NCBI GenBank assembly: GCA_020439745.1
Contig: JAGQSC010000044.1
Location: forward strand, 62,001 to 126,000
Reading direction: 5' to 3'
DNA: 64,000 bases
Source: Acidobacteriota bacterium
Lineage (GTDB): Bacteria; Acidobacteriota; Holophagae; Acanthopleuribacterales; Acanthopleuribacteraceae
Every line of letters starts with the position of its first letter. The stretch's first letter is position 1. The notes below the pieces were generated by a model. That model saw nothing but the letters and a program-made list of their open reading frames with translations, did not search any database and had not been told where the DNA came from. Shown here piece by piece: positions 7,140 through 26,574 of the stretch. The position numbers and the translations under genes were made by a program.

Positions 7140-8894
7140 CTAATCCAAGAACGCCAATTCGAGCCCACTGCGATCGGCCGCCTGTATATGATTCAGTGTG
7201 TGGATGGCTTTAGGCAAGATCTGTGCCGCAAAAAATTGACACGTCTTGATCTTTTCGCCATAAAAACGCTCGTCGGAGGTGGCCAACTTTTCGCTGGCCA
7301 CCTTGGCTTGTCTGGCTAGGTAGTAAGCCGACGCCAACAAACTCATGGCTTCCTGGAAATCTGTGGCGTAGTACTGAACCAGATCCATTTGATTACAGGT
7401 TGCGAAGACCTTGACGGCTTCTTCAGTAGCCTTGGTGGCCTCAAGTAATCGATCTTTGATGACCCCCACGGGCTGAGATCCGCAGAATTCACGGATCTCT
7501 TTCAGCCAAGTTTGCAGCGTCTTTCCTTGGTCACCGAGAATTTTCCGGAAGACGAGATCCATGGCTTGAACACCATTGGTCCCTTCGTAAATACTCGTAA
7601 TCTTCACGTCGCGCATGTATTGTTCCACACTATATTCCTGGCAATATCCGTAACCGCCATGCGTTTGAATTGCCATTTCGGTGATTCGGAAGCCCTGGTC
7701 CGATCCGTAGCTCTTGCAGATAGGAGTTAACAGATCCACATATCCCTGATACCGAGCCGCATCCGTCTTGTGATGGTGTGCCAAATCTTCGTAAAGGGTT
7801 AGGTGATAAAGAAGCGCGCGGCCACCTTCGACCAAGGCCTTCATGGTGAACAACATGCGGCGTACGTCCGGATGTTCTGCGATCTTCACGCCGCGATAGC
7901 CTTGATCGGTTTTGGTAGAACCTTGAACACGGTTTTGAGCATAATCGAGGGCCGCCAAATAGGCAGCAGCCCCTTGGGCCAGTCCCTGAACACCCACCTC
8001 GATGCGTGCGGAATTCATCATTTGAAACATCTGGGCCAGGCCTTGGTTGGGTTCACCGACGAGGTACCCCAGACATGCGTTGTTTGTACCGAAGTTCATG
8101 ACACAAGTGGGCGAAGCCTTGATACCCATCTTGTGTTCAATATTGCCGCAAGCGACATCATTGGTCCCGGTGATGTTGCCGCTATCGTCAACGCGGTTCT
8201 TTGGCACGGCGAACAGGCTCAAACCCCTTGACCCTTTAGGTGCGTCAGGCAGTCGTGCAAGCACCAGGTGGATGATGTTTTCAGACAATGGGTGGTCGCC
8301 CCAGGTGATGAAGATTTTGGTACCAGTGATCAGGTAACCATCGCCGTGGGGTACGGCTTTAGTGGTACTGGCACCCACGTCGGTACCTGCATGTGGTTCC
8401 GTCAGACACATGGTTCCTGACCATTCGCCGCTGTACATCTTCTCCAGGAACTTGTGTTTCAGAGTGTCCGGTCCAAATGTCTCAATCAAATTCGCTGCTC
8501 CGCGGGTGAGCAGGGGCAACATGGAGAACGACACGAACGACCCACATTCCAGTTCCACTACGGGTGCGCCAAAGAAATGGGGCAATTCACTGCCTCCAAA
8601 TTCTGTGGGAGCCAGCATACCAATGAGTCCCAGTTCCTTGTACGCAGACCAGGCTTCGGCTATGCCATTCGGCAAGGTAACTTCACCGTTATTGAACTGG
8701 CAACTCTCACGGTCGGAGGTGTGGTGTAACGGCGCCAAGACTTGCTGGCAAAATGCAAGCGATTGCTCATAAATCATGCGCAGCGTATCTTCGCCAGCAT
8801 CCGGTGACGGATGATTTTCCACAAGTAAATCAACGCCAGGACATTCAAACATGTTGAAATATAGGTCCCGTTCATCAACTCGGTATTGGGTCAT
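7140..8894 (-). CDS. Acyl-CoA dehydrogenase, large DmdC/FadE-like type
   Basis: A flavoprotein (584 residues) that introduces the alpha-beta double bond into an acyl-CoA. FAD-binding signatures are CLTEPHAGTDVG (163-174) and FITWGD. The C-terminal helical domain has THGGYGYCQEY, and the catalytic base is Glu437 in SIYEGTNGVQ. Length and motifs resemble the long class that includes 3-methylmercaptopropionyl-CoA dehydrogenase (DmdC) and other C-terminally extended enzymes, so chain-length preference cannot be assigned. The start is an ATG with GAGAGGTG upstream. A FadR-type operator copy (8915-8928) overlaps its probable transcription start, tying it to the fadNAE regulon. Confidence 0.93.
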   Translation of the reverse strand: MTQYRVDERDLYFNMFECPGVDLLVENHPSPDAGEDTLRMIYEQSLAFCQQVLAPLHHTSDRESCQFNNGEVTLPNGIAEAWSAYKELGLIGMLAPTEFGGSELPHFFGAPVVELECGSFVSFSMLPLLTRGAANLIETFGPDTLKHKFLEKMYSGEWSGTMCLTEPHAGTDVGASTTKAVPHGDGYLITGTKIFITWGDHPLSENIIHLVLARLPDAPKGSRGLSLFAVPKNRVDDSGNITGTNDVACGNIEHKMGIKASPTCVMNFGTNNACLGYLVGEPNQGLAQMFQMMNSARIEVGVQGLAQGAAAYLAALDYAQNRVQGSTKTDQGYRGVKIAEHPDVRRMLFTMKALVEGGRALLYHLTLYEDLAHHHKTDAARYQGYVDLLTPICKSYGSDQGFRITEMAIQTHGGYGYCQEYSVEQYMRDVKITSIYEGTNGVQAMDLVFRKILGDQGKTLQTWLKEIREFCGSQPVGVIKDRLLEATKATEEAVKVFATCNQMDLVQYYATDFQEAMSLLASAYYLARQAKVASEKLATSDERFYGEKIKTCQFFAAQILPKAIHTLNHIQAADRSGLELAFLD

Positions 8895-8914: not shown

Positions 8915-8957
8915 TGAATTGTCATTCACTCTATCAGGCTTGGCGGGTGTTTCGCAA
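8915..8957 (-). promoter_or_regulatory. Promoter and FadR-type operator of acyl-CoA dehydrogenase gene
   Basis: Reading the minus strand: TTGCGA (8952-8957), an 18-base spacer, TAGAGT (8928-8933), and then directly the near-palindrome TGAATGACAATTCA (8915-8928). The operator differs at two central positions from the perfect palindrome in front of fadN. It sits where transcription would start, 20 bases before the ATG, so a bound repressor would block the promoter. Identity of the binding protein is inferred. Confidence 0.6.
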
Positions 8958-17380: not shown

Positions 17381-20314
17381 ATGCAGGAACCATCATCGAC
17401 CTCAGTTTCACATTATCGCTTGATTCGTCAGATCGGGGTTGGCGGAATGGGCGAGGTCCATCTTGCGGAGGATCAATCTTTGCGCAGGCAAGTTGCGTTG
17501 AAGTTCCTACCGTCTTTCTTGAATATTGATGAATTGGGCAAGCAGCAACTCAAGCGCGAAGCGCAAACCGCGGCTAGTCTCAACCATCCAAATATCGTCA
17601 CCATTTACGAAATCGGAGAACACGAAGGACGCGATTTTATCGCGATGGAATACATGGATGGCGAGTCTTTGAAGGAGTTGATCAAGTTAGGTCCGCTTTC
17701 TGTCGAACGTGTCCTTGATGTGTCGATACAGCTATGCGATGCGCTTTCCGCAGCGCATGAAAAAGGTGTCGTGCACCGAGATATCAAACCCGACAATGTT
17801 CTTTTTGACCGCTCGGGGAGACCGAAGATTTTGGACTTTGGACTCGCCAAATACACCCAGGTGTCACTGACCAATAAGGATCGCGCGTTCGGCACACCAG
17901 GCTACATTGCGCCTGAACAGATCCATTGTGAGGATGTGGACCAGCGGGCCGACATCTTTTCTTTGGGGGTCGTCATCTACGAGATGGCTTGTGGCATACG
18001 CCCATTTGTTGCGGAACGCGAAATGGGTGTGATTTACAAAATCCTGCACGAGGAACCTCCACCACTTAAGGACCATGGCGTCGACTTGCCAGACTTACAA
18101 CTGATCATCGACAAGGCATTGACAAAGAATCCCGATCGCCGTTATGCCAACATCGCGGAAATGAAACACGACTTGATGGTGCTGCGAGGTGATTCTTTTA
18201 CCCGCCCTCTACCACGCATTCAATCCTCCATGCCCTGGTGGGCACGTGCAGTCTCTCTGGTTGCGATCCTTGCTATGGCTTGGTTTGCGGTACGGTCCAT
18301 GAGCCGAGACGTTGAGCCGCCATTGGACCTTGGCGATCAAGTGGGCGTGGCAGTTGCCGTGATGCCGTTCACAGTTCGGGCAGGCGATGATTATGCCTAT
18401 CTTTCAGAGGGTATGGTTGATTTGATCAGCACGAAACTGGATGAAGTGACTGATATCCGCTGTGTCGCGGCTGAGGCATTGTTGTCCTACGTCGCCAAGA
18501 ATGGAGGTGCGGATGTCGATGATGCGGGCAAACGCAAAATCGCTAACCGCTTCGGCGCTCAGTATTACGTACAAGGCACCGTGGTGGAAATTGCGGGTCA
18601 ATTGAACTTGGATATCTCCTTGTACGCCGTAGACAAGGATGGACCTGTCGTACATACCACCTTGTCGGGTACCTCTGAAGAACTTTTCGAAATGATCGAT
18701 CGCGCAGCGGTAGATGTGCTAAGTGGTATCGCTCCAGACCCCGCGCAAAGAATGCGGCGCCTGGCCGCGGTGACCACTCATTCCTTTCCTGCCCTGAGAT
18801 CTTATCTCGAAGGGGAACGTCTTTTTCGTGAGGGCCGCTTTGCGGCGGCTATTGATTCGTTGCAAAACGCGGTGAAGGAAGATGAATCATTCGCGCTTGC
18901 CTACTATCGCATGAGTATGGCGGCAGAGTGGCTCGCTTTGACAGGTCTTTCACAGCAAGCGGCAGAAAGTGCGGTAGAGCATTCGGGCCGTCTGAATCGA
19001 CATGACAAGATGCTATTGAATGCCAGTCTCGCCTGGCGAATTGGCGATGTCAACGAAGCCGAGTTACTGTATCGGAAAATCCTGGATATTTATGTTGATG
19101 ACGTGGAAGCCTGGTTCCAGTTAGGCGAAGTAAAGTTTCACAATGCACCCATTCATGGCCACTCGTTGACTGAGGCGGTGGAGCCATTTGAACGTGTGCT
19201 TGATATTGACCCTCATCACGTTCCTGCACTTTGGCACCTTTTACGTATCGAGATCTTGCGGGGCAATCAGGCACGAGCCAATGAAATGATCAAGCTGATT
19301 AGTACGTTGCAGCCCGAAGGGGAGCGGTTGATTGAAATTGAGACGCTGGACGCGTTTGTGAACAACGACCAAAAGAAGATCGACAGTATTCTCGATCGAT
19401 TGAATACCGCAGGCGATACCACCCTCATGTTGGCAGCTTGGAACGTAGGTGCCTTTTCGCCCGCTCCTTTTGAAGCCACAGCGGTTGCCGATTTGATGGC
19501 ACAGCCCGAGCGGTCGCGCGATTGTCGCACACTTGGTCTCTTCTGCAAGGCCTATCTCGCCATAGCTCAAGGACGCATTTCCGAGGCTTTCGTGTACGTC
19601 GATGATGCGGCCCGAAACGATCCGAGAGCGGCACTTGAGTTGAGGGCCTATTTCAACTTGTTGCCGTTCGTTGAAAGTGACGCCGGCATATTGGACGCGT
19701 TGCAGGAACGGTTGGCATCGCCTCCTTCTGCCTACGAGCCAGACTCACACAACATATTCGTGACGGTCCACAACGGCATGCACGGGCACATAACCACGTA
19801 TTTGTCCACTTTGTTGGATATCCGAATGGGCAAGAATCCACGCAAGTGGGCTTCCACCGAAGAGGTGATGTCCGATTTCAACCACAATTCTGCATTGAAG
19901 GATCTGAAACTGGGTGCGTTGGCTTATCAGGACGTTATGTTGGGTAACTTTGAAGAAGCCGCCCAAGAACTCGACGGCTTGAATCTTCAGGGTTGGTATG
20001 GATTTGTGAGCACGTCGCCTTTCTTCTCACGAGCCCGTGAAAGGTATTTGCATGGCTTGGCGTTGGCCCATGCTGGTCGAATAGAGGATGCAGACGTGAG
20101 GCTTCGGTCCTTTACCAATCATTCGTTGCACGACCTGATGTATTTGGCGCCGTCCCATTACCAGCGAGGCCTGATGTACGAAGATCGGGATCCCGAAAAG
20201 GCGGCGGAACACTTTGCGCTATTCCTTGAAATGTGGCAGGGAGCCGATTCTCAGTTTGATACAATGATCAAGGACGCCCGAGAGCGCCTAGAACGCATCC
20301 GCAACCGCATGTAG
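17381..20314 (+). CDS. Ser/Thr protein kinase with TolB-like and TPR domains
   Basis: A membrane kinase of 977 residues. The PknB-like domain (12-270) has GVGGMGEV, Lys41, Glu60, HRD 132-134 with Asn139 and DFG 152-154, so it should be active. One transmembrane helix lies near 285-307. The extracytoplasmic part opens with AVMPFTVRAGDDYAYLSEGM, the start of a TolB N-terminal/FlgO-like domain that predicts CadC-style protein sensing in related kinases, followed by helical TPR-like repeats to the end. This architecture is common in Acidobacteria and Myxobacteria. Single gene; its 3' end meets the TetR gene with a six-base gap. Signal and targets unknown. Confidence 0.9.
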   Translation: MQEPSSTSVSHYRLIRQIGVGGMGEVHLAEDQSLRRQVALKFLPSFLNIDELGKQQLKREAQTAASLNHPNIVTIYEIGEHEGRDFIAMEYMDGESLKELIKLGPLSVERVLDVSIQLCDALSAAHEKGVVHRDIKPDNVLFDRSGRPKILDFGLAKYTQVSLTNKDRAFGTPGYIAPEQIHCEDVDQRADIFSLGVVIYEMACGIRPFVAEREMGVIYKILHEEPPPLKDHGVDLPDLQLIIDKALTKNPDRRYANIAEMKHDLMVLRGDSFTRPLPRIQSSMPWWARAVSLVAILAMAWFAVRSMSRDVEPPLDLGDQVGVAVAVMPFTVRAGDDYAYLSEGMVDLISTKLDEVTDIRCVAAEALLSYVAKNGGADVDDAGKRKIANRFGAQYYVQGTVVEIAGQLNLDISLYAVDKDGPVVHTTLSGTSEELFEMIDRAAVDVLSGIAPDPAQRMRRLAAVTTHSFPALRSYLEGERLFREGRFAAAIDSLQNAVKEDESFALAYYRMSMAAEWLALTGLSQQAAESAVEHSGRLNRHDKMLLNASLAWRIGDVNEAELLYRKILDIYVDDVEAWFQLGEVKFHNAPIHGHSLTEAVEPFERVLDIDPHHVPALWHLLRIEILRGNQARANEMIKLISTLQPEGERLIEIETLDAFVNNDQKKIDSILDRLNTAGDTTLMLAAWNVGAFSPAPFEATAVADLMAQPERSRDCRTLGLFCKAYLAIAQGRISEAFVYVDDAARNDPRAALELRAYFNLLPFVESDAGILDALQERLASPPSAYEPDSHNIFVTVHNGMHGHITTYLSTLLDIRMGKNPRKWASTEEVMSDFNHNSALKDLKLGALAYQDVMLGNFEEAAQELDGLNLQGWYGFVSTSPFFSRARERYLHGLALAHAGRIEDADVRLRSFTNHSLHDLMYLAPSHYQRGLMYEDRDPEKAAEHFALFLEMWQGADSQFDTMIKDARERLERIRNRM

Positions 20315-20320
20315 TCCTGG

Positions 20321-20932
20321 TTATTTCAGCCCGTTGATCAGGATATCGATGGTGGGTGCTGCCATATCCTTGAGGGCGTATTCCTTCTTGCGCAGTACCC
20401 AGTTGGTAGCCATTTCGTCCAGGGCGCCGAACACCACTTTCACAGCGGTCCAGGGATCGAGATCGGCGCGAAGTTCTCCAGCGCGTTGCGCTTCTTCAAT
20501 CACACCTTCAATGATATTGAAGTAGTCGCGTAACTTGGTCTGTGAAAACTGTTTCATGGTGTGAATGCTGTGCCGCAGTTCAATCTGGAACACCGCAGCC
20601 AGGTCTTCATTGGATCCCAATCCCGAAAGATGGAGGTCCACGATGGCCCGCAATTTGTCGGTCGGGGAGGTACGCTTGGCGATTTCTTTGACACCATCGG
20701 CAATGAACCGGTCCATGGTTTCTTCGAAGATGGTGATCAGCAAGTCGTCCTTATTCTGAAAATACAGATAGATGGTGCCATCCGCCACCTGAGCCTCAGA
20801 CGCCACTTCGGCCACGGTCGTACCCTGGAAACCATTCTTAGCAATAACCTTGATCGCAGCGTCGAGAATGCGTTGCCTTTTCTCGATCTTTTTTCGTTCT
20901 CGGTTGCTCAACTTGGATTGAGTCGCATCCAT
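20321..20932 (-). CDS. fadR: TetR-family regulator, probable FadR of beta-oxidation
   Basis: A DNA-binding repressor of 203 residues from ATG 20932, which has GGGGGA upstream; an in-frame ATG at 20986 has no ribosome site. The TetR helix-turn-helix spans about 38-57 (VAEVASEAQVADGTIYLYF), followed by a helical ligand domain. It is divergent from fadN-fadA-fadE, the gene set controlled by the TetR protein FadR (YsiA) in Bacillus, where long-chain acyl-CoA releases the repressor. The palindrome upstream of fadN uses the same TGAATGA/TCATTCA arms I recall for Bacillus FadR. The family is certain; the specific role is inferred from position and operator. Confidence 0.85.
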   Translation of the reverse strand: MDATQSKLSNRERKKIEKRQRILDAAIKVIAKNGFQGTTVAEVASEAQVADGTIYLYFQNKDDLLITIFEETMDRFIADGVKEIAKRTSPTDKLRAIVDLHLSGLGSNEDLAAVFQIELRHSIHTMKQFSQTKLRDYFNIIEGVIEEAQRAGELRADLDPWTAVKVVFGALDEMATNWVLRKKEYALKDMAAPTIDILINGLK

Positions 20933-21155: not shown

Positions 21156-21203
21156 TTGACAAGGTGCGTCATAACATGCAAAATAAAAATGAATGATCAT
21201 TCA
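21156..21203 (+). promoter_or_regulatory. fadNAE promoter overlapped by palindromic operator
   Basis: TTGACA (21156-21161), 17 bases, CAAAAT (21179-21184), then a perfect 14-bp palindrome TGAATGATCATTCA (21190-21203) covering the expected start of transcription. The fadN ribosome site GGAGG follows at 21209. The arms equal those of the Bacillus FadR box as I remember it (arms separated there by four bases, abutting here). A 12/14 copy lies at 8915-8928. Confidence 0.7.
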
Positions 21204-21217
21204 ATTTTGGAGGCGAT

Positions 21218-23584
21218 ATGGTTCGCGATATCCAAAAGGCTGGGGTCCTTGGGGCAGGTGTGATGGGTGCGGCGATTGCTGCACACCTCGTGAATGCCGG
21301 GATCGATGTCGTTTTGTTGGATCTTGAAATCGAAAAAGGCGGACAGAAAATTCATCTGGCTCGCGAAGCCGTCAAAGCCATGGCCAAGGCAAAGCCTTCG
21401 CCCATTTTTGTCAACGACTGGCTTCAAAAGATTAAGACGGGCACCTTTTCCAGTGACCTCAAACAACTTGAGGATTGTGATTGGGTGATTGAGGTCGTCA
21501 AAGAAGATCTCACCGTGAAACACAACCTATTCAAACAGATTGCAGGCCATCTGCGCGCTGATGCGCTACTGACGACCAACACGTCTGGAATTCCCATCGC
21601 GCAATTGAGCGAGGTACTGCCAAGCGATCTCAAACCAAGATTTTGTGGCACGCACTTCTTTAATCCACCGCGGTACATGAAGCTTCTGGAAGTCATTGCG
21701 GGCCCAGAAACCAGTCAAGACGTGCTTTCCTTCTTTGAACAGTTCGGCGAATCGAGGTTGGGCAAAGGTGTGGTATTTGCCAAAGATTGTCCCAACTTTA
21801 TTGCCAACCGAATTGGTGTATTGGCCATGATGGGCGTGATGCAGTCAATGCTCGAAGACAAGTACACGATAGAAGAAGTGGATAAGTTGATGGGTCCGCT
21901 GACTGGAAGACCCAAGAGCGCCGTGTTCAATACGGCGGATGTGGTGGGCTTGGATACTTTTGCGCATGTGTCGGACAACCTCTATCAAGCGGCGGTTGAC
22001 GATGAGATGCGTGACCAGTTTGTGTTGCCGCATCCCATTCGAGCCATGATCGAAAAGGGGTACCTGGGACGCAAATCCGGTTCCGGGTTCTACCAGAAGA
22101 CAAAGGGAGAAAAGTCCGAGATCCTGACGATTGACCTGGATACCCTGACCTATCGCCCCAAACAGAAACCCAATTTCCCCGCCGTAGAGGTCGTCAAGAA
22201 CGAGGAAGATCTCGCTGAACGCCTCCGCAAGCTGGTTGCACTCAACGATCGCGCCGGTACGTTCATCTGGAAAGCGCTCTCAACCACGCTTGTCTATGCC
22301 GTAAACCGATTGGGTGAAGTGGCTGACGATATTGTGAATGTCGATCGAGCAGTTCGTTGGGGCTTCAATTGGGAGATGGGTCCGTTTGAAACATGGGACG
22401 CATTAGGGGTTTCAGCCACTGCCGAGCGTTTACGAAGTGAAGGTCGCCCGGTTCCGGCACTGGTTGAAAAGATGCTGGAAAAAGGCGTGACCTCTTTCTA
22501 TCAATCCGAAAAAGGCGTGCAACGTTATATGGACATTGAAACGCTTACCTACACTGATGTCCCTGGTCGACCGAATGTATTGATCCTGGCCGACTACAAA
22601 CAGGGCGACCATCGCGTGGTCAAGCAAACGCCCGGCGCCAGCCTTCTCGATCTGGGAGACGGAGTGGCCTGTCTTGAATTCCATTCCAAGATGAATGCGA
22701 TTGGCTCAGACACCATCTCCATGACCCAGTATGCGGTAAAGACGGTTGAGGAGAAATTCGATGCCTTAGTCGTGGCCAACCAGGGCGGTAACTTCTCAGC
22801 CGGAGCGAACCTAATGCTGTTGCTGATGGAGGCTCAGGAAGGGAATTTTGAAGACATCAATCTAATGATTGCCGCGTTTCAAAAAGCCACCAGCTCGCTG
22901 CGATATTGCAAAAAACCTGTTGTCGTGGCGCCATACGGCCTAACCTTAGGCGGCGGTTGCGAATTCACGTTGCATGGTGATGGCGTGGAAGCGGCTGCTG
23001 AAACCTACATGGGCTTAGTTGAGGTAGGTGTGGGTTTGATACCCGCAGGTGGCGGCACTAAAGAAATGCTGCTCCGTCATGTTGGGGGCGCCGCGGCGCG
23101 AGGCGAGTCAGACTTATTGACACCACTGCGACGCATCTTTGAAACCATAGGCATGGGCAAGGTTGCCACTTCGGCCGAGGAAGCACGTCAGTTTGGGTTC
23201 CTCAAGCCAACAGATGGCGTAACAATGAATGGCGATGCACTCGTCACGGCTGCAAAGAAACGAGCTCGCGCCATGGCCGATATGGGTTATCAGCCTCCCA
23301 GCGTGCCTGACAATATTCCTGTCTTAGGTGAACCGGCTTATGCGGCATTGAAGCTGGGCTTGTACATGATGCGCGAAGGCGGCTACATCAGCGAGCACGA
23401 TGCCAAAATCGGGACCCATTTGGCCCGTATCCTGACGGGAGGTGCCTTGACGCCAGGAACCACCATGACAGAGCAACACGTTCTGGATTTGGAACGAGAA
23501 GCGTTTCTGCGTTTGTGTGGCGAACGAAAATCGCTCGAACGCATTCATCACATGCTGACCAAAGGCAAACCACTGAGGAATTAG
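21218..23584 (+). CDS. fadN: 3-hydroxyacyl-CoA dehydrogenase / enoyl-CoA hydratase
   Basis: A bifunctional beta-oxidation enzyme: hydrates enoyl-CoA and oxidises 3-hydroxyacyl-CoA. The protein has 788 residues. Unlike FadB of enterics, the dehydrogenase half comes first: NAD Rossmann GAGVMG (12-17) and catalytic His146 in CGTHFFNPP. The hydratase/crotonase half is C-terminal, with NFSAGANL as oxyanion region, LGGGCEF and [10 protein letters not shown]. This order and length match FadN of Bacillus. The gene is first of a fadN-fadA-fadE operon; GGAGG lies four bases before the ATG. Thiolase follows after eight bases. Confidence 0.94.
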
Positions 23585-23592
23585 GAGCCAAT

Positions 23593-24774
23593 ATGACTGA
23601 CGCACTCATCGTGTCTGCCGTCCGCACACCGGTCGGCAAAGCTTACAAGGGGAGCTTCGCGGCTACGCGGCCAGATGATCTGGCAGCTGTGGCCATGAAT
23701 GAAGCCATCAAAAGGGTGCCTGGCTTGGAAGGCGGGCAATTAGACGACATTATTATGGGTTGCGCCATGCCGGAGGGCGAACAAGGCATGAACGTCGCCC
23801 GAATCGCGCAGTTGCGTGCAGGCATTCCTGAAACGGTTCCGGCCTTGACCATCAACCGGTTTTGTTCTTCTGGCCTGCAATCGATTGCATTTGCAGCAGA
23901 CCGCATTCAGGCAGGCGGTGCCGACGTGATTTTGGCCGGCGGCACCGAGTCCATGTCCATGATTCCCATGGGCGGCAACAAAATTGCGCCTAACCCGTAC
24001 CTGGTCGACCATTATCCAGAGGTCTACATCAATATGGGACTGACGGCCGAGAAGGTTGCCGAAAGATACCAGATATCTCGTGAAGACCAGGATCGATTCT
24101 CGCTTTCCAGCCATGAAAAGGCGGTTCGCGCCATGCAAGAGGGCCGCTTTGACGATGAGCTTGTGCCCTACACGGTTACCCACACAGTTGCGGGCAAAGG
24201 CTATAAGACCGAGTCCAAGCAGTTTGAAGTGAAAGCGGACGAAGGACCTCGCCAAGACACGGATTACGAGGCGCTGGCCAAGCTAAAGCCTGCCTTCAAG
24301 ATGGGCGGCAGTGTAACTGCTGGCAACAGTTCTCAAATGTCAGACGGAGCGGCGGCTGCCGTTGTCATGTCTTCGTTAAGGGCCAAGGAACTGGGTGTGA
24401 AGCCTTTGGCTCGCTTTGTCGGTTTTGCGCTTGCCGGCGTAAAGCCCGAAATCATGGGAATTGGACCAGCCTTGGCCATTCCAAAACTGCTCGAAAAGAC
24501 GGGTCACCGTCTTTCGGATATTGGTTTAATCGAGCTCAATGAAGCCTTTGCCGCACAGTCGCTGATGGTGATACGGGAGCTCGATCTGGATCCCGCCAAA
24601 GTAAATGTGAACGGCGGCGCCATTGCGTTGGGACATCCTCTCGGATGTACGGGTGCCAAGTTAACAGCGACATTGGTCTACGAAATGAAACGCAGAGACG
24701 TCCAATTTGGCATTGTCTCTATGTGCATAGGCGGCGGCATGGGTGCAGCCGGCCTGTTTGAACTGGTAGCTTAG
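23593..24774 (+). CDS. fadA: Acetyl-CoA acyltransferase (3-ketoacyl-CoA thiolase)
   Basis: Cleaves 3-ketoacyl-CoA with CoA to acetyl-CoA and a shortened acyl-CoA. The protein has 393 residues, counted from ATG 23593, which has TTAGGAG upstream; upstream in-frame starts lie inside fadN. Catalytic residues are Cys91 (NRFCSSG), His348 ([11 protein letters not shown]) and Cys378 (CIGGGMGAA). It lies between fadN and fadE, nine bases from each neighbour. Thiolases that make acetoacetyl-CoA look alike, but the operon fixes a degradative role. Confidence 0.95.
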
Positions 24775-24783
24775 GAGGCCCTA

Positions 24784-26574
24784 ATGATGACTGAGCAGGA
24801 AAAAAAAGCATTTGTTGCCGGTGGGAGTTTCCTAACCAGCGAACATACGGAAATCTTCACTCCGGAAGACTTTACCGATGAACATTTGATGATGGCTGAA
24901 AGTACCGAGCGATTTGTGGATGAGGTGATCATGCCGCAGTCCGAGAAGCTCGAGAAAACTGACATCCCTACAATCGTGCAGATCCTCAAGCAAGCGGGTG
25001 AACTGGGTCTGTTAAGCACGGAAGTTCCCGAAAGTTATGGTGGCATGGAGCTTTCCAAGGCGGGTGCCTGCCTTGTCGCTGAAAAGATGGCAAAGACGGG
25101 CGGGTTTGTGGTCAGTTTTGGTGGCCATACAGGTATTGGTACCATGCCCATAACCTACTTTGGAACGCCTGAACAAAAACAAAAGTATTTACCCAAGTTG
25201 GCGAGCGGCGAGTTGCTGGCGGCTTATGCGTTGACCGAAACATCGTCTGGCTCCGACGCCCTGAACGCGAGAACCAAGGCAGTGCTCAGCGAAGATGGCA
25301 CCCACTACGTCCTCAACGGCAACAAAATGTGGATCACCAACGCAGGATTCGCGGATGTGTTCATTGTATTTGCCAAGATTGATGGCAAGGATTTCAGTGC
25401 CTTTATCGTGGAACGGGACTATCCAGGTGTGTCGGTTGGAGCTGAAGAGCGAAAGCTGGGCATCAAGTCCTCGTCCACGCGCATGCTGATCCTGGAAAAT
25501 GTCAAGGTGCCGGTGGAGAACCTTTTGGGCGAACAGGGCAAGGGACACAAGATTGCTTTCAACATTCTGAACATTGGCCGATTCAAGTTGGGGGCCGGTG
25601 TAGTTGGCGGCAGCAAGTTGTCGATTGCATTGAGTAGCCAGTATGCCAAAGAAAGAAAAGCCTTTGGTAAGCCCATCAGCGATTTCGGCATGATTCAACA
25701 CAAATTGGGTGAGATGACCATTCGCACGTTTGCCGCTGAATCCATGGTGTACCGAACGGCTGGCTTGATTGACCACATTCTTGAAGGCGTCAAGTTTAGC
25801 GATGAAGGTGGTGAACAACGCATTCTTCAAGGTATCGAGGAATACGCCATTGAATGTGCCATGGCCAAAGTGTTTTGCTCCGAAGTATTGGACTATTGCG
25901 CCGACGAGGCCGTTCAGGTGTACGGCGGCTACGGATACTCGCAGGAATACCCGGTCGAGCAAATCTACCGCGACAGCCGAATCAACCGAATCTTCGAGGG
26001 CACCAACGAAATCAACCGCATGCTGATTGTCGATATGCTGATCAAACGCGCCATGCAAGGCAAGATCCCGCTGATGGAACAGGCGCAGTCACTCATGGGT
26101 GAATTGATGGGTCCCCCATCCTTTGATTTCGACGAGGACTTTGAAGTGCTCAGCGATGAAGCCAAGATGATCGCGAACGCGAAGAAGGTGTTCATGTTCA
26201 TTGCCGGCGCAGCCTTCCAGAAGTACATGGAGAAATTGGCTGATCAACAGGAGTTGTTGGGTTTGGCGGCCGATGTGCTGACCGAAACCTTCACCATGGA
26301 AAGTATGCTGATGCGAACCCGCAAAGCCATCGGCCGTTCTGGCGAAGCAGCTGCTGCGGACATGATTGCCGCCACACGTGTCTATTGCCACGATGGGTTG
26401 GAACGCATCCAGACTTGGGCAAAAACCGGACTGGCAGCTGTTGCTGATGGGGATACCCTGATGACTATGATGGCTGCGGCGAGAAGGCTGTTGAAGCATC
26501 CCGCAATCAACACCATAGAATTGCGCCGCCAGGTTGCAAGAAAGGTGATAGACAAAGAAGGCTACATTTTCTAA
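24784..26574 (+). CDS. fadE: Acyl-CoA dehydrogenase (beta-oxidation)
   Basis: First oxidation step of fatty-acid breakdown. The protein has 596 residues, the long VLCAD/FadE-like form also found in the Bacillus fadNAE operon. FAD signatures are YALTETSSGSDA (148-159) and MWITNAG. CoA and flavin contacts continue in ERKAFGKPI and YGGYGYSQEYP. The catalytic base is Glu405 in IFEGTNEI. A C-terminal helical extension of about 170 residues follows the core. AGGAGG precedes the start, an ATGATG pair in which either ATG could be used. Electron-transfer flavoprotein genes are not in this window. Confidence 0.95.
   Translation: MMTEQEKKAFVAGGSFLTSEHTEIFTPEDFTDEHLMMAESTERFVDEVIMPQSEKLEKTDIPTIVQILKQAGELGLLSTEVPESYGGMELSKAGACLVAEKMAKTGGFVVSFGGHTGIGTMPITYFGTPEQKQKYLPKLASGELLAAYALTETSSGSDALNARTKAVLSEDGTHYVLNGNKMWITNAGFADVFIVFAKIDGKDFSAFIVERDYPGVSVGAEERKLGIKSSSTRMLILENVKVPVENLLGEQGKGHKIAFNILNIGRFKLGAGVVGGSKLSIALSSQYAKERKAFGKPISDFGMIQHKLGEMTIRTFAAESMVYRTAGLIDHILEGVKFSDEGGEQRILQGIEEYAIECAMAKVFCSEVLDYCADEAVQVYGGYGYSQEYPVEQIYRDSRINRIFEGTNEINRMLIVDMLIKRAMQGKIPLMEQAQSLMGELMGPPSFDFDEDFEVLSDEAKMIANAKKVFMFIAGAAFQKYMEKLADQQELLGLAADVLTETFTMESMLMRTRKAIGRSGEAAAADMIAATRVYCHDGLERIQTWAKTGLAAVADGDTLMTMMAAARRLLKHPAINTIELRRQVARKVIDKEGYIF

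Follow-up and report, generated by a model that had tools for sequence, protein, structure and literature searches.

The fatty-acid-burning genes of this Acidobacteriota bacterium are probably controlled by a relative of Bacillus FadR that acts through a shortened DNA switch, a 14-bp palindrome lying at the predicted promoter of the beta-oxidation operon fadN-fadA-fadE. The window, that is, the whole stretch of 64,000 nucleotides that was analysed, also carries a tetR gene divergent to this operon. A probability of about 0.72 is given to the reading in which the FadR-type TetR protein binds the fadNAE operator as one dimer, acts also at a second site (8915–8928), is released by acyl-CoA and belongs to a clade in which a second operator copy has been lost. 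We infer binding, repression and the acyl-CoA ligand from sequence, and the presence of one dimer per operator purely from the geometry of the site. This reading would extend FadR-type control of beta-oxidation to little-studied phyla, with an operator that can be tested.

The fadNAE operon, its regulator gene and its promoter

The operon consists of fadN (21218–23584, plus strand; Pfam, NCBIfam), the acyl-CoA thiolase gene fadA (23593–24774, plus strand; Pfam, NCBIfam) and the acyl-CoA dehydrogenase gene fadE (24784–26574, plus strand), the product of which scores 868 bits on the NCBIfam model of Bacillus FadE (cut-off 600). The Pfam domains of FadN are in reversed order, with 3-hydroxyacyl-CoA dehydrogenase (HCDH) first and enoyl-CoA hydratase (ECH) last. 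Both the gene order and the domain order agree with a preliminary description of this DNA, as does the TetR gene that it had placed divergently beside the operon, found here at 20321–20932 on the minus strand. Its product is FadR-type by Pfam domains and by fold: TetR_N (PF00440; 62.0 bits) and the YsiA-like TetR_C_4 (PF08359; 106.7 bits) are both above cut-off, and the top fold matches of the AlphaFold2 model (pLDDT 92) are FadR of B. subtilis and B. halodurans, among them the complex with stearoyl-CoA (3whc). By sequence as well as by fold, these two proteins are its nearest relatives with known structure. On the NCBIfam FadR model NF053878 the protein scores 197.5 bits, 2.5 bits under the equivalog cut-off of 200, and it is therefore named FadR-type here and not filed as an NF053878 equivalog. 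No relatives of it were found in the viral contigs searched. Convergent with tetR, and next to it, is a 977-aa ORF (17381–20314) that, judged from its sequence and not by family search, starts as a Ser/Thr protein kinase-like protein and has a long C-terminal part.

A consensus scan places the predicted fadN promoter at 21156–21184 on the plus strand, with the −35 hexamer TTGACA (21156–21161) and the −10 hexamer CAAAAT (21179–21184) separated by 17 nt; 0.5 such matches are expected in the region by chance, and the hexamers and their spacing are kept in four related genomes (G001, G003, G005 and G006). The palindrome TGAATGATCATTCA is a perfect one of 14 bp at 21190–21203. Its first base is the sixth after the predicted −10, it spans the predicted transcription start, and its last base is 14 bases 5′ of the fadN ATG at 21218; GGAGG at 21209–21213 (plus strand) is a probable ribosome-binding site. 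The preliminary description had named this palindrome as a FadR-type operator over the fadNAE start. The palindrome and its distance from the −10 are exact, and the placement over the start is borne out for the predicted promoter. The claim that the arms abut holds for the window copy, which resembles abutting 7-bp arms because its four central bases are GATC, but not for the motif in general: what is constant among relatives is a pair of 5-bp arms, TGAAT and ATTCA, around four variable bases (TGAAT-N4-ATTCA).

Operator length, phylogeny and dimer number

Operator length was compared across 130 non-redundant FadR-type loci, 92 outside and 38 inside the TetR clade of the window. Operator classes were set by fixed patterns, as were the genome-wide scans, and many of the genomes are metagenome-assembled. 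No paper giving the letters of the Bacillus operator was found in the open literature, and the 18-bp form, TGAATGA-N4-TCATTCA, was thus taken from the Bacillota loci themselves. Outside the clade this 18-mer is found near tetR in exact form at 56 of 92 loci, and with at most one mismatch at 79, in a class that spans Acidobacteriota, Bacillota, KSB1 and Myxococcota; inside the clade the exact 18-mer is near tetR at none of the 38 loci and TGAAT-N4-ATTCA at 33, all these counts being of related loci and not of independent events. A single locus outside the clade (L019) has the 14-bp site alone. Within the clade, 25 of the 33 loci with the 14-bp site lack even a near-18-mer, whereas 8 also carry one with one mismatch, so that in Krumholzibacteriota the operator types grade into each other.

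Genome-wide scans gave a similar picture. Each of three genomes from a family of the same class (f3) has five exact 18-mers, and five other Acidobacteriota have between 0 and 4; none was found in six of the seven genomes of the window's family, the window's own included, or in nine Krumholzibacteriota genomes. The only exact 18-mer in the family (G005:C54:216258–216275; L269 2259–2276) is located 20 bases 5′ of an ORF for an exported protein. An operator shorter than that of Bacillota had been suggested for the window, and this is upheld at 14 bp against 18 bp. Across the loci compared, the shortening belongs to a TetR clade in two phyla and not to the window locus alone. Annotation that searches with the 18-bp motif overlooks this whole short-operator branch.

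The short-operator clade is made up of Acanthopleuribacteraceae-type and Krumholzibacteriota TetRs and also holds other Acidobacteriota. In the TetR tree from all columns, the window's family groups with the Krumholzibacteriota short-operator proteins with support of 99/90; for the ligand domain alone, without the DNA-binding domain, the support is 91/88, and in the FadN tree it is 84/75, neither of these two being starred. The TetR ligand domain does not reject a single clade of the window's family with f3 (p-AU 0.56), and FadN rejects it weakly (p-AU 0.044); transfer between phyla is thus likely, not proven. Transfer from Bacillus was considered and is not supported, as both TetR trees place the Bacillus FadRs apart (98/97 and 99/97). 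The earlier suggestion that gene set and regulator had travelled or been conserved together outside Firmicutes therefore stands as to conservation and finds no support as to a Firmicutes origin: its proposed phylogeny, once made, put the window TetR with Krumholzibacteriota and other Acidobacteriota, away from Bacillus. Given an 18-bp FadR operator in several phyla and 14-bp sites at most loci of the clade, the short operator can be put down neither to a peculiarity of a single genome nor to acquisition from Bacillus. Judged by these sequence comparisons, FadR-type control has a long history and a broad distribution, and the 14-bp form of the operator belongs to one FadR sub-branch common to two phyla.

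In B. halodurans, two FadR dimers occupy the operator cooperatively. For Sulfolobus acidocaldarius FadR, a spacing of 11 positions separates the contacted G from its symmetric C, and whether one dimer or two bind depends on the presence of another G-C with this spacing (PMC6449355). One G-C pair so spaced (G2-C13) is present in the 14-bp site and two (G2-C13 and G6-C17) in the 18-bp site, so that the longer form amounts to a pair of 14-bp sites that overlap with an offset of four bases. Such a reading predicts TGAAT-like inner half-sites, and an excess of AT after the inner TGA is indeed seen in the 18-mers (32/112 against ~7.6 % expected; 12/48 on distinct centres). The simplest mechanism for the shortening would then be loss of the second, cooperatively bound dimer. 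At 21190–21203 one flank reads AAAA where the outer TGAA would stand and the opposite flank ATTT in place of TTCA, and the G-C pair for a second dimer is thereby gone.

The same flanks are at issue if the FadR-type repressor still binds here as two dimers, with the second on AT-rich DNA and the palindrome being a degenerate-looking form of the usual operator. An 18-mer read on either side of the window site shows just two mismatches, and several of the Krumholzibacteriota 14-mers are partly extended (TGAATGATCATTCATTAA). However, AAAA and ATTT eliminate the second G-C pair, and the genome is without an exact 18-mer; binding by two dimers is accordingly regarded as unlikely, although it deserves to be kept in mind.

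The preferred reading is that one dimer suffices. The TetR protein of 20321–20932 would be the local FadR-type repressor, and a single dimer on TGAAT-N4-ATTCA at the transcription start would block RNA polymerase at the fadNAE promoter; the same protein would act at 8915–8928, upstream of a gene for an acyl-CoA dehydrogenase. With long-chain acyl-CoA in its ligand pocket, the dimer would open and come off the operator, so that beta-oxidation would be induced by its own substrate. For this release, the predicted fold match to the stearoyl-CoA complex is only suggestive. Most relatives would place two dimers on an 18-bp operator, and in the clade of the window the second copy would have been lost, one dimer being enough.

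The recognition helix does not vary between the 14-bp and 18-bp classes, and the half-site is thus expected to be identical in both. At the start of helix 2 (TetR residues 38–40), short-operator proteins mostly have T-T/S-V and users of the 18-bp operator have A/S-K/R/Q-V. A specificity switch at one residue, T39 for K/R/Q39, fits most loci but was rejected, as three Krumholzibacteriota loci (L197, L198 and L200) combine R39 with 14-bp sites; the α2 residues are therefore no exceptionless predictor of operator length. It may be that the clade swapped a two-dimer cooperative operator for a one-dimer operator with its recognition helix unchanged, and crossed phyla along with fadN, a tentative scenario to which we would give slightly less than even odds. 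If true, the operator switch of this clade would be a natural experiment on a TetR operator losing or gaining dimer cooperativity. As operator length tracks protein phylogeny while the reading helix stays the same, TetR cooperativity could be tested across natural relatives.

Conservation and further candidate targets

Binding by the window TetR is predicted, and a different regulator of the genome could bind the palindrome instead. In Acidobacteria bacterium DOLJORAL78_46_51 (G002), tetR is on another contig, unlinked to fadN, with an exact TGAATGATCATTCA still 5′ of fadN. However, orthologues of tetR in several phyla have the same half-site next to them, in most cases immediately upstream in an autoregulation-like position, and another regulator is improbable.

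Seven genomes of the family were compared: that of the window (G000) and G001–G006, which include Holophagae bacterium OFTM365 (G001) and Acanthopleuribacter pedis (G006) besides G002. TGAAT-N4-ATTCA is present in the fadN promoter of all six that have fadN, down to 67 % FadN identity; in G004 the TetR is present and a fadN match is absent. Outside the window genome and G002, the site reads TGAATGACCATTCA in G001, TGAATGAGCATTCA in G003 and TGAATGAGTATTCA in both G005 and G006. Apart from this site and the promoter hexamers, the intergenic DNA diverges. In A. pedis (L078) a second TGAAT-N4-ATTCA, TGAATAGCGATTCA, is located upstream of the −35, 90 bases before fadN, and two sites thus flank that fadN promoter.

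Because the palindrome stands at the predicted start of the leader and could pair with itself, it might work as a hairpin in the 5′ leader RNA and not as a DNA operator. Related sites keep the letters of both arms with no joint change, however, and the distance between site and start codon is not constant either; we consider a hairpin very improbable. TGAATGATCATTCA has a single exact copy in the 5.1 Mb genome, where composition predicts ~0.016, and for the 285-bp tetR/fadN intergenic region the probability is ~0.02 for a perfect 14-bp palindrome and ~0.001 for TGAAT-N4-ATTCA, values that treat sites as independent. Chance, to which the seven perfect 14-bp palindromes in the window might point, is very unlikely, as the site is kept at the same promoter in six of six fadN-bearing genomes while its intergenic surroundings differ. 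This conservation among related genomes is taken as the decisive evidence that the palindrome is real.

A second operator-like site, TGAATGACAATTCA (8915–8928, minus strand), is located 20 bases before the start of an acyl-CoA dehydrogenase gene (7140–8894, minus strand; Pfam), the predicted second target in the window, which has at least one orthologue in each of the seven family genomes. In G005 and G006 the site keeps its position, and in G001 it has one mismatch. Genome-wide there are 12 TGAAT-N4-ATTCA sites against ~4 expected from base composition, and unconserved single sites are thus weak evidence. Two sites 50 bases apart lie between the class I fumarase gene fumA and a divergent gene (G000:C56:15006–15069; L061 2501–2564; L266), and at the equivalent place in G001 there are again two, 51 bases apart, one with a mismatch. 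Although these sites are kept in G001, fumA was not adopted as their target, one site being at the +1 position of the divergent gene; the secreted hydrolase-like product of that gene gave no Pfam match and no significant family or structure match. Elsewhere in the genome, TGAATGACCATTCA is found ~80 bases before a gene for HMG-CoA reductase, an unusual possible target (G000:C16:112250–112263; L057 2501–2514). A small ORF that has a partial lipase-chaperone match (Pfam PF03280) and is followed by a multihaem cytochrome-like gene carries a copy reading TGAATGATGATTCA (G000:C27:233094–233107; L059 2495–2508) immediately 5′ of its ribosome-binding site.

Comparison with known FadR systems

Bacillus FadR (YsiA) is a TetR-family protein that represses beta-oxidation genes, fadNAE among them. 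The window system resembles it in fold, in the YsiA-like ligand domain, in the invariant recognition helix with the half-site TGAAT, and in its target, fadN-fadA-fadE with the reversed FadN domain order. It differs in having an operator of 14 bp in place of 18 bp and a divergent tetR beside fadN, and in a TetR that falls in a separate clade and narrowly misses the NF053878 cut-off.

Other FadR-type TetRs of Acidobacteriota, including those of f3, belong to the same protein family, at ~45–50 % identity. In the f3 genome G010, as in the window, predicted control sites stand 5′ of tetR, of a fadA-fadN operon and of an acyl-CoA dehydrogenase gene. Unlike the window genome, with no exact 18-mers, f3 genomes use 18-bp operators; the five in G010 are found before tetR, the thiolase-fadN pair, the acyl-CoA dehydrogenase gene, an EtfB-like gene and a gene for a large membrane protein, the last three being identified from sequence starts and not by family search.

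Thermus thermophilus FadR has a 15-bp palindrome, TTRNACYNRGTNYAA, at which one homodimer is expected (PMC5597230). It shares the TetR fold and is an acyl-CoA regulator; its operator letters are different, and the fold match to the window TetR is distant (TMq ~0.7). The Sulfolobus protein (FadRSa) is likewise a TetR-type acyl-CoA regulator with the 11-position G-C spacing (PMC6449355), and is distant from the window TetR in sequence. In FadRSa the number of dimers varies among the operators of one protein, whereas here it is operator length that differs, and it does so between clades.
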